This document shows positions 38,048-41,048 of a DNA stretch of 61,304 nucleotides, piece by piece (position 1 is the stretch's first letter; the number at the start of each line of letters is the position of its first letter). Position numbers and translations under genes: made by a program. Below the pieces are notes generated by a model. The model saw only the letters and a list, made by a program, of their open reading frames with translations. It was not told the DNA's origin and did no database searches. The DNA lies in contig JAJEHX010000027.1 of the NCBI GenBank assembly GCA_022823465.1, positions 1 to 61,304 on the forward strand. Direction: 5' to 3'. Source of the stretch: Candidatus Latescibacterota bacterium. GTDB lineage: Bacteria; JAAXHH01.

Positions 38048-39352
38048 TCAGAATCCGTCATCGCCGGGAAGGGCCACGGCGCGCGGCGCCATCCGCTTCA
38101 AGCGCTCGTCCAGCAGCCTCTTGAGCTGATTCAACTTGAGCCGGTGGGCCGCGAGTTCCTTTTCGTGCTCCAGGATCATCTGCTGGATCAGACGGGGGTC
38201 TTCTCGGGAGAGCGGGTCCTCCGTACCATCTTCGACCAACAGGGGCGAGGCGGGTGAATCGAGCGTTTTCGGCTGAGCGGCGAGGACCGTGTGCACGGTA
38301 TTTTCCGTACCTCCCCGCAGGTACCTGATTTCGATCCGGGAACCGGCGGGAAGCGAGGTCACGAATTCGGCCAGGATGATGGGATGGTTCATGGGAACGC
38401 CGTTCACCGCCCGCAGTATGTCCCCCTTGCGAAGACCGGCCTTCATGGCGGGGCTGCCGGGACTCACGTCGGTAACTTCCATGCCTTCGCCGGTTCCCAG
38501 CATGATGTTGCGGTTGCCGTCGACGCTGATGCTTTCCCAGATTTTCTCCACGTAGACGCCCAGCCAGCTTCGGCGGACTTCACCATGTTCGATGAGCTGA
38601 CGGGCGAAGGTCTTTACGCGGTTTATGGGTATGACTGAAATCACGCCGGCGCCTTCCCCTTCCAGTACACTGCCCGACGCGGGGGGCTGGCCCCCTGGGG
38701 GAGCGGATACGAGACCCAGCAGGCGGCCGTTCGAGGAAAACACGGCGCCGCCGGAGAAATCTCCTCCGACCACGGCGCTGACCTGCATCATGACGTCTTC
38801 TTCCCGAACGCCGTTGACGATTCCCGTCGTCATCGAAGACGGAAACCCATGGGCATTGTTCATCACAAGCACCCAGGACCCGGGCCGCGCGTCATCGGAG
38901 TCGCCGAGGCGCGCGGAAAGGACCGACACGCTGTCCACCCGGATTACGGCGATGTTCGAAAGCGGGTCGACGCCGACGAGTTCCCCGAGACGGTACCGGC
39001 CATCCTGGAAATTCACCAGGATATCGTGGGCATGATCCACGACACCGGCCGTCGTGATGACGTAACCGTCTCTGTGGAGGACCACGCCGGTTCCAATGGA
39101 GCGTTCCCAGTCCGTGAAGGTCTGTCCGTTCACCGAATGGATGAACTTCCGCTGCACGATTACGCTGGCGACCGTCGGCTCGACGCGTTCCACGAGGCGG
39201 ACGATCTCTTTCTCGAGATTATGCAGATATGCGGCGGACTGGGCGTAAGCCCTGGAAGCGGAGTCCAGGTGCCAGAGGCAGACCAGCAGCGTGGCGCAGA
39301 TCACGGGACGGAGGCGTTCGGTCCCGGTGCGATAGGGTTGAGAACCATGCAT
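38048..39352 (-). CDS. HtrA/DegP-like PDZ protein with degenerate catalytic triad (predicted pseudoprotease)
   Basis: A 434-residue exported protein with an N-terminal hydrophobic leader (about 16-37, ending AYAQ), a trypsin-like domain (about 60-235), a PDZ domain (about 275-365) and a charged helical tail (380-425). Aligned by eye with DegP, the His of the HVV motif is Gly 103 (GYVITTAGVVDHA) and the triad Asp is Asn 133 (VDPLSNIAVIRV). Only the Ser remains, Ser 200 in GGDFSGGAVF. Peptidase activity is therefore unlikely. It begins 6 nt after the anti-sigma factor stop, so it belongs to the sigma/anti-sigma operon and probably acts as an envelope sensor or scaffold. Confidence 0.85.
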   Translation of the reverse strand: MHGSQPYRTGTERLRPVICATLLVCLWHLDSASRAYAQSAAYLHNLEKEIVRLVERVEPTVASVIVQRKFIHSVNGQTFTDWERSIGTGVVLHRDGYVITTAGVVDHAHDILVNFQDGRYRLGELVGVDPLSNIAVIRVDSVSVLSARLGDSDDARPGSWVLVMNNAHGFPSSMTTGIVNGVREEDVMMQVSAVVGGDFSGGAVFSSNGRLLGLVSAPPGGQPPASGSVLEGEGAGVISVIPINRVKTFARQLIEHGEVRRSWLGVYVEKIWESISVDGNRNIMLGTGEGMEVTDVSPGSPAMKAGLRKGDILRAVNGVPMNHPIILAEFVTSLPAGSRIEIRYLRGGTENTVHTVLAAQPKTLDSPASPLLVEDGTEDPLSREDPRLIQQMILEHEKELAAHRLKLNQLKRLLDERLKRMAPRAVALPGDDGF

Positions 39353-39358
39353 GTCTGT

Positions 39359-40237
39359 CTAGAACGAGATTCGGATGCGTTTGATCGGGGCAGGCAGACC
39401 GGCAGGACCGGACTGACCGCCAGTACTACGCTGGCCATTTACTTCGGCGGTGCCGACCTGCAGAAGACGCTCTTCCGGTTCCGATTGGGCCGTGCCGCCG
39501 TCTGTAACCAGGTCCCCGCCTAAGGACTCGGTAAACAGAGACGGATCGAGGGGCATGCCCGTACCGGACGATACGACCTGGATCCCATGGGCCGTGGGTT
39601 CCATGGTTTGAACCGTCATGACGCCCGGGCTGTCATTGTAATTTCGGGATGGGGTAAAAGTGAGACGGGATGCTGCCGTGGAGGGGAAACTCGTTGCCTG
39701 TTCTGCATTTGGTTCTGGTTTTAGCGCAAGGTTCCGCGCGAACGCACGGTCGGGAGGATCAGGAGAAATCGGGTCCGGCGGGGCGAGTTCGGGTTCGAAG
39801 GGCGTCGGCAGGGAAAGGGCCATGGAGCCGCCGGGAGACGAGCCGGGCCGTTCCGAAGGACTGATCAGGCCAGCGATTCCACCGAACACGGTTATGGTCA
39901 GGACCAGGCTGGCCGCAAACACGAGTTGCACGGGGCGCTGCCGGCTCAGTTCGCCCAGATCGGAAAAGGCCTCCGAAACGCGCCGCAACCAGGGAGCGGC
40001 GTACAATTCACGGGCGACTTCCTTTGTCAGCAGGCTGCTGAGCCTGTAGTCGAATTCCGGTTGAGGGGTTACGAGGGCAAGACTCTTTACCGCGCGGATG
40101 GAGCTTTCCATGTCTTTGATCTTGAGCCGGCATCGGGGGCATCCGTTCATGTGAAATCGCAGCGCGTCTTCGTTTGCCCTGGATAACTGACCGTCAAGGT
40201 AGTCCGGCATCTGGCGCTCGTAGCCACTACAATTCAA
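39359..40237 (-). CDS. Zinc-finger (ZAS) transmembrane anti-sigma factor
   Basis: About 292 residues. I set the start at the TTG on 40237 (LNCSGYERQMPDYLDGQL) because AAGGAGG lies 9 nt upstream and zf-HC2 proteins typically start this way; the longer frame from 40276 overlaps the sigma gene. The zinc motif is H29-x3-C33-x2-C36 in FHMNGCPRC. One membrane helix is predicted at about 102-126 (PVQLVFAASLVLTITVFGGIAGLI). The periplasmic part is Pro/Ser-rich and low-complexity. It would hold the ECF sigma factor at the membrane until a signal releases it. It sits between the sigma gene (17-nt gap) and the HtrA-like gene (6-nt gap). Confidence 0.88.
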   Translation of the reverse strand: MNCSGYERQMPDYLDGQLSRANEDALRFHMNGCPRCRLKIKDMESSIRAVKSLALVTPQPEFDYRLSSLLTKEVARELYAAPWLRRVSEAFSDLGELSRQRPVQLVFAASLVLTITVFGGIAGLISPSERPGSSPGGSMALSLPTPFEPELAPPDPISPDPPDRAFARNLALKPEPNAEQATSFPSTAASRLTFTPSRNYNDSPGVMTVQTMEPTAHGIQVVSSGTGMPLDPSLFTESLGGDLVTDGGTAQSEPEERLLQVGTAEVNGQRSTGGQSGPAGLPAPIKRIRISF

Positions 40238-40254: not shown

Positions 40255-40902
40255 TCAAAGTATCTCTACCTGCCACTGCCGCAGCATTTCCTGAAGCCTG
40301 AGCCGTCCCCGGTTGACCCTCGACTTGACGGTCCCCGTCGGACAGCGGAGGATTTCGCCTATCTCCTCATAGGACAGTTCTTCGATATCGCGCAAGACGA
40401 TCACGGACTTGTACTTTTCCGGGAGTTGATCGATCGCGTGCTGAATGGCGCGGCCCAGTTCGTTCTGCTCCAGATGATCGCCGGGGCCGGCGTTCATGTC
40501 CGGCAAATCGATCCCTTCCCTCGAACTGTTCTCGTGGGGCGAGGCGTTCAGGGAAAAAAACTGGCGGCGTTTGCGCTTGCGCAACTCGCTCCGTGCCAGA
40601 TTGAGCGCGATCGTGTAGATCCACGTGGACAGGTTGGAGATTGCCTTGTAGTTGTGGCGGTTCCGGTACACCCTGAGAAACGCCTCCTGTACGAGGTCTT
40701 CCGCGCATTCCGTGTTGTGGACCATGCGGTAGACGCAGTTGTACAGCCTTGTCCGGTACCGGCCGACGATCACCTCGAAAGCGCGCACGTCGTCCTGCTG
40801 GACACGATAGAACAGCGTTTCATCCGACATGGTCAGTTCATCTAACGACCCGGACTCGATATCGGACACCTGTACCGCGTTTATAGAGGTGTTTTCAGAC
40901 AT
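40255..40902 (-). CDS. ECF-type RNA polymerase sigma factor (RpoE-like)
   Basis: About 215 residues from the ATG at 40902 (MSENTS), which follows GGGAG by 8 nt; an upstream ATG at 40917 is less well placed. Region 2 spans FEVIVGRYRTRLYNCVYRMVHNTECAEDLVQEAFLRVYRNRHNYK...LSTWIYTIALNLARSELRKRKRR. Region 4 is AIDQLPEKYKSVIVLRDIEELSYEEIGEILRCPTGTVKSRVNRGRLRLQEML. There is no region 1.1 or 3, as expected for group 4. The next two genes encode its anti-sigma factor and an HtrA-like protein. Two promoters lie upstream, one housekeeping-type and one ECF-type, suggesting autoregulation. Confidence 0.93.
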   Translation of the reverse strand: MSENTSINAVQVSDIESGSLDELTMSDETLFYRVQQDDVRAFEVIVGRYRTRLYNCVYRMVHNTECAEDLVQEAFLRVYRNRHNYKAISNLSTWIYTIALNLARSELRKRKRRQFFSLNASPHENSSREGIDLPDMNAGPGDHLEQNELGRAIQHAIDQLPEKYKSVIVLRDIEELSYEEIGEILRCPTGTVKSRVNRGRLRLQEMLRQWQVEIL

Positions 40903-40923
40903 ATTCGTTTCTCCCATACCGCT

Positions 40924-40953
40924 TTATACGCTACGCGGAGGGATTCGGTTTCA
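40924..40953 (-). promoter_or_regulatory. Predicted ECF-type autoregulatory promoter
   Basis: On the minus strand, TGAAAC (40948-40953), a 17-nt spacer and CGTATA beginning at 40930. This resembles the TGAAAC-N16-CGT(A/C) pattern of SigW/RpoE-type sigma factors. Transcription would start just ahead of the sigma gene's ribosome site. Confidence 0.55.
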
Positions 40954-41019: not shown

Positions 41020-41048
41020 AATATAGAAATCGGCCGCCCGGATGTCAA
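41020..41048 (-). promoter_or_regulatory. Predicted housekeeping promoter of the ECF sigma operon
   Basis: On the minus strand, TTGACA (41043-41048), a 17-nt spacer and TATATT (41020-41025). A second TTGACA abuts it at 41049-41054. Confidence 0.65.

Follow-up and report, generated by a model that had tools for sequence, protein, structure and literature searches.

HtrA proteases tied to envelope-stress sigma factors are textbook cutters, and algU-mucABCD is a known operon that combines an ECF sigma factor and its anti-sigma factor with a triad-bearing HtrA. The mycobacterial sigE-rseA-htrA operon has the order ECF sigma factor, zinc-type anti-sigma factor and HtrA, the last again a triad-bearing protease. 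PDZ domains commonly bind C-termini of the form hydrophobic/Thr/Ser-x-Phe/Tyr. Among HtrA proteins, DegS and AlgW have PDZ domains that recognise C-termini with a final Phe (PMC8103513, PMC8545111). Inactive serine-protease homologues have been surveyed previously (PMC2605481), and the only precedent for a bacterial HtrA pseudoprotease that we found in the open-access literature is MamO of magnetotactic bacteria, which has a non-catalytic job beside intact HtrAs (PMC4794232).

The window, i.e., the whole stretch of 61,304 nucleotides of a Candidatus Latescibacterota genome analysed here, carries the following three genes:

38048..39352, minus strand: HtrA-like pseudoprotease of 434 aa, with export signal, degenerate trypsin-like domain, one PDZ domain and C-terminal heptad helix
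39359..40237, minus strand: anti-sigma factor with zf-HC2 domain, one transmembrane segment and Pro-rich extracytoplasmic part
40255..40917, minus strand: ECF sigma factor, best NCBIfam match SigW (PRK09641), possibly starting at the second ATG, 40902

The anti-sigma gene likely starts with TTG at 40237 after AGGAGG (the ORF list begins at GTG 40276), and the pseudoprotease gene begins 6 nt behind it. This gene order is that of mycobacterial sigE-rseA-htrA, differing in that all HtrA members here lack the catalytic His. As in RIP pathways of the RseA/MucA type, an ECF sigma factor and a membrane-anchored anti-sigma factor share one operon, and the RpoE-RseA-RseB-DegS and AlgU-MucA-MucB-AlgW/MucD systems likewise combine an ECF sigma factor, a single-span anti-sigma factor with extracytoplasmic part and a linked periplasmic regulator. 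In contrast to these systems, the linked HtrA is without a triad, the anti-sigma factor is of the zf-HC2 type with an aromatic C-terminus of its own, and no RseB/MucB homologue is present in the operon, where the third gene is the HtrA-like one and the next encode an aldo-keto reductase and an M20 peptidase.

Within the pseudoprotease, the relevant parts are:

39044..39046, minus strand: Gly103 codon GGT, at the catalytic His position
38954..38956, minus strand: Asn133 codon AAC, at the catalytic Asp position
38753..38755, minus strand: Ser200 codon TCC, at the catalytic Ser position (Thr, Gly or Ala in some relatives)
38588..39235, minus strand: degenerate trypsin-like domain, approximately residues 40-255, with shortened L3 region, under purifying selection
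38273..38581, minus strand: PDZ domain, approximately residues 258-360, opening with a WLGV segment
38090..38200, minus strand: C-terminal heptad-repeat helix, residues 385-421, replacing a second PDZ domain

The preliminary description had proposed that this protein lost the His and Asp of the DegP triad while keeping Ser200, the fold and a PDZ domain. Both losses are borne out by a phmmer search against solved structures, which aligned residues 85-358 to DegP (E ~1e-35) and placed Gly103 at DegP His105, Asn133 at Asp135 and Ser200 at Ser210, by the codons, and by a 44-sequence alignment, in which the window protein reads G/N/S against H/D/S in 32 of 32 comparison HtrAs. Furthermore, the oxyanion segment GNSGG is changed to GDFSGG, QTDA to QVSA, and the L3 region of the dead forms lacks at least six residues compared with even the shortest one among the 32 intact HtrAs. 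The retained fold and PDZ domain were likewise recovered: a Trypsin_2 match (residues 87-214, 72.9 bits) is followed by a PDZ match (approximately 282-355), the domain order of the HtrA/Deg (S1C) family, and an AlphaFold model built on 42 sequences (pLDDT 77, pTM 0.71; an 8-sequence version with pLDDT 43 was set aside) matched DegP, AlgW, DegQ and DegS in the PDB, best DegP 3mh6 and AlgW 7co5. A hydrophobic helix at residues 15-31 of the model is followed by A-Y-A-Q, probably a typical signal-peptidase end. The window protein thus shares fold and PDZ domain with DegP, DegQ and DegS, yet it differs from them, and from the MucD-type HtrAs linked to such operons, in lacking the triad of an active protease, and it departs from DegP, DegQ and DegS further in its short L3, altered oxyanion strand and single PDZ domain with heptad helix. 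Judged from the sequences, the catalytic apparatus is gone, with the His missing from every relative and the oxyanion strand and part of the L3 loop lost as well, and the PDZ domain is intact. The C-terminus of the pseudoprotease itself (38048-38059, minus strand) reads D-G-F in most genus members and EF or GI in two, an end not found in the other lineages; it is a possible self-ligand for the PDZ domain.

The gene is present in 14 of the 16 genomes by which the phylum is represented in our comparison set. Besides the window genome, they comprise 10 of the 11 others of its genus (the exception is 87% complete and in 400 contigs), both remaining genera of the family and one of the order's two further families; the named relatives are Latescibacterota or 'Gemmatimonadetes' metagenome bins. 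Gly occupies the His position throughout the family and Ser does so in the order's second family, which rules out chance or sequencing error for this residue. At the Asp position, most of the genus retains Asp, and G012 and G014 have Ser; Asn is confined to the window protein and its two closest relatives and is a recent change. Four genomes of the phylum carry Thr at the Ser position. Tabulated over all relatives, the His is absent throughout and the Asp and Ser columns vary, so that of the proposed triad changes the His loss is universal, the Asp loss is not general, and the retention of Ser200 holds for the window protein but not as a rule of the family (Thr, Gly or Ala in several relatives). 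Purifying selection acts on the dead protease domain, whose pairwise dN/dS against four genus relatives is 0.12-0.19, with 0.08-0.15 in the core (residues 84-216); the PDZ domain gave 0.15-0.35.

Beyond the phylum, one profile run over 384 genomes returned four distant matches covering most of the length and a second profile returned a fifth. Phylum-wide searches around G073, G117 and G151 gave separate sets of 1, 1 and 4 genomes; G288 falls in the set of G151, and G335 falls in none and hence counts as its own phylum by exclusion, giving four extra phyla in total. The residues at the His/Asp/Ser positions of these relatives are:

G073: N/N/S
G151: D/N/T
G288: D/N/S
G117: G/D/G
G335: S/G/A

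The His is replaced by Gly, Ser, Asn or Asp in all dead forms, and a similar C-terminal heptad-repeat helix occurs in all their lineages. A tree of the 44 proteins, calculated after removal of the triad and L3 columns, placed the 12 dead and the 32 intact forms on opposite sides of one branch (support 100/99), which was seen in all bootstrap trees sampled. In this unrooted tree, the single branch fits a scenario in which activity was lost once, long ago, and the triad drifted afterwards. Every dead HtrA gene, other phyla included, is preceded by a zf-HC2 anti-sigma gene, which in turn follows an ECF sigma gene in all loci except G288, where the DNA stretch ends first; the three-gene synteny was seen in the own phylum and in G073, G117, G151 and G335, with identities of 45-73% between the window sigma factor and its counterparts beyond the genus. 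The ~1.5 kb flanks of 29 intact HtrA loci contain no such ECF sigma gene. By tree and gene order, the dead HtrAs are one protein group in at least five phyla, located in the sigma operon wherever it is visible, so the pseudoprotease in a sigma/anti-sigma operon, as first described for the window, is well supported. In G151 and G288, a conserved gene for a putative lipoprotein (~340-376 aa; L143 2661-3692, plus strand, and its counterpart in L145) follows the dead HtrA.

Elsewhere, the window genome encodes intact HtrAs, one with two PDZ domains and one DegS-like with a single PDZ domain and intact triad (G000 C26, L002), a candidate site-1 protease for this anti-sigma factor; they are unlinked to the operon and ~30-35% identical to the pseudoprotease. 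The same genome contains two Trypsin_2 proteins with collagen-like Gly-x-y repeats before the trypsin-like domain, apparently lipoprotein-anchored (L004, G000:C5:6363-6860; L005, G000:C36:486-998). In addition, HtrA-like proteins are encoded on 68 IMG/VR viral contigs (L074-L141), with an intact triad in 34 of 34 aligned; many of them form a distinct group with the His motif T-N-[FY]-H-C-[IV].

Upstream of the sigma gene, two promoters are conserved in seven genus loci:

40927..40953, minus strand: SigW-like ECF promoter TGAAACC-N16-CGTA
41020..41048, minus strand: sigma-70-type promoter TTGACA-N17-TATATT

Both are nearly invariant across these loci, the ECF promoter reading TGAAACC-N15/16-CGTATAA, which is the SigW-type ECF pattern. 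Since SigW is also the best match of the sigma factor, the operon is likely autoregulated by its own sigma factor. A strict genome scan for TGAAACC-N15/16-CGTA returned six matches versus two for a control pattern, of which only the operon's own promoter is credible.

A candidate binding partner for the PDZ domain lies at the end of the neighbouring gene:

39362..39382, minus strand: C-terminal tail of the anti-sigma factor, KRIRISF-COOH, proposed PDZ ligand

In the genus and G013 this tail reads K/R-R-I/V-R-I-S-F, in G012 R-V-S-F, in G014 R-V-A-F, in G151 and G288 F-T-S-F and S-T-S-F, in G117 I-S-T-Y and in G335 V-V-S-F; G073 is the exception, with an end (T-F-S-P) that has no terminal aromatic residue. 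With G151 and G288 pooled and each of the three own-phylum variants counted by itself, six of seven lineage groups end in [STA][FY]-COOH, compared with 0 of 29 unlinked zf-HC2 proteins of the same genomes (Fisher p ~4e-6, an optimistic value, because the pattern was formulated with the tails already in view and a single phylum supplies three of the seven groups). The Phe-ending tail recalls the Phe-ending C-termini read by HtrA PDZ domains in the RpoE and AlgU systems. The tail codons vary synonymously, with four codons used for Arg and three for Ile, so that the constraint acts on the protein; conservation of nucleotides near the next start codon was rejected on the same ground, there being also no strong Shine-Dalgarno sequence at this site. 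Five of the seven tail residues are invariant within the genus, and as the best extracytoplasmic window has six, the tail is not the most conserved one. The segments MTVQTMEP and GMPLDPSLF of the anti-sigma factor are also extracytoplasmic and conserved in the genus, the former recognisable in G012 and G013, and a segment Y-[VIL]-L-P, found by eye ~12-14 residues before the end, is common to G014, G073, G117, G151 and G288.

Taken together, the maintained HtrA-fold pseudoprotease is best explained as a dedicated third component of the ECF sigma/anti-sigma system, a reading drawn from comparative sequence data. Its full form, a non-proteolytic PDZ co-regulator that holds the tail of its own anti-sigma factor as a guard, has in our estimate an even chance of being correct. 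The exported pseudoprotease would bind with its PDZ domain the extracytoplasmic R-I-S-F-COOH of its anti-sigma factor, and the segment preceding it in the tail may also lie in the inactive substrate cleft. As long as the cell is at rest, such a complex would keep site-1 cleavage of the anti-sigma factor low, similar to RseB/MucB. When the envelope is stressed, a ligand, either the exposed C-termini of misfolded outer-membrane proteins or a different one, would compete for the PDZ domain; an active HtrA from another locus would then cut the freed anti-sigma factor, and the released sigma factor would reinforce its own operon via the SigW-like promoter. The weakest steps in this scheme are its protective direction and the nature of the ligand; competition by outer-membrane proteins is weakly supported, as only 4 of ~11 TonB-dependent receptors in the genome end in Phe. 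Also weighing against the explanation are the pLDDT of 77 of the model of the window protein, the tail being one of several conserved extracytoplasmic segments in the genus, the TFSP end of G073 without aromatic residue, and the PDZ domain of an intact HtrA as a potential real reader of the tail. The suggestion made at the outset, that the protein is a PDZ-based sensor or a decoy protecting the anti-sigma factor, is still a hypothesis, though a plausible one, to which the PDZ-ligand-like C-terminus of the linked anti-sigma factor adds unexpected support and a concrete candidate partner; the protein may protect, present or sense.

The strongest alternative, in our view unlikely but worth retaining, is an adaptor that holds the tail and, on sensing a ligand, hands it to an intact HtrA or activates one through mixed trimers or contact, thereby promoting cleavage. 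MamO, itself an HtrA pseudoprotease, is required for MamE-dependent proteolysis (PMC4794232), intact HtrAs exist in the same genomes, and the operon and tail evidence fits such an adaptor as well as a guard. MamO differs, however, from the window protein in keeping His and Asp, with Thr for Ser, and in having a transporter domain, surface di-histidine metal binding and no link to a sigma factor; the window shows neither a magnetosome neighbourhood nor a transporter domain in the protein, which scores 22.7 bits against the NCBIfam MamO cut-off of 800. The intact HtrAs proposed to join such mixed oligomers are unlinked and distant in sequence, and most of the L3 loop, the relay from PDZ domain to active site in HtrAs, is missing. 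Because of this lost relay and the position of the gene, which is that of MucB/MucD, we lean slightly towards an RseB-like guard over a MamO-like adaptor.

DegP-type proteins also work as chaperones, and a little less probable again is a non-cutting, DegP-like periplasmic PDZ holdase that is simply a target of the sigma factor, its operon linkage reflecting co-expression and the tail being read by an intact HtrA. The probable autoregulation of the operon would suit such a role, but it leaves unexplained both why the gene consistently follows an ECF/anti-sigma pair across five phyla, a linkage absent around the 29 intact HtrAs, and why the tail is specific to these anti-sigma factors.

Far less credible is an active protease of unusual type that employs other residues, e.g., His107 or His109 with Ser200. 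Some members of the genus retain Ser200 and the Asp, and His107 is invariant across the genus and G013, His109 across the genus, but these His residues lie four and six residues past the catalytic position, G012, G014 and the other phyla lack them, the Ser is replaced by Thr, Gly or Ala in several members, and the oxyanion strand and L3 are altered. The His107/His109 site is not conserved beyond the genus, reading HAYD in G013 and QADD in G012 and being absent from the rest, so that these residues cannot be a general substitute for the catalytic His in this family. A decaying pseudogene, to which the still drifting triad residues might point, is refuted by the low dN/dS (0.12-0.19), the open frames in all relatives with an uncut gene and the synteny across phyla, and is close to inconceivable.

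In the open-access papers searched, we found no description of an ECF system whose constant third member is a conserved dead HtrA paired with a matching anti-sigma tail. It is conceivable, though we would put it somewhat below an even chance, that these loci represent an envelope-signalling module, widespread and as yet undescribed, whose receptor is a dead HtrA; the PDZ domain would be filled by the C-terminus of the receptor's own anti-sigma factor, which would mimic that of an outer-membrane protein and be displaced by stress ligands. Further members may be sought by Thr-[Thr/Arg]-x-[Gly/Ser/Asn/Asp] at the His site and by a short G-[VF]-[NDS]-[GA]-x-R turn replacing L3. If true, the HtrA PDZ read-out would be separable from proteolysis and reusable as a pure sensor or guard, and the pairing of dead HtrA and aromatic anti-sigma tail would provide a testable rule for several phyla with little or no cultivated material.
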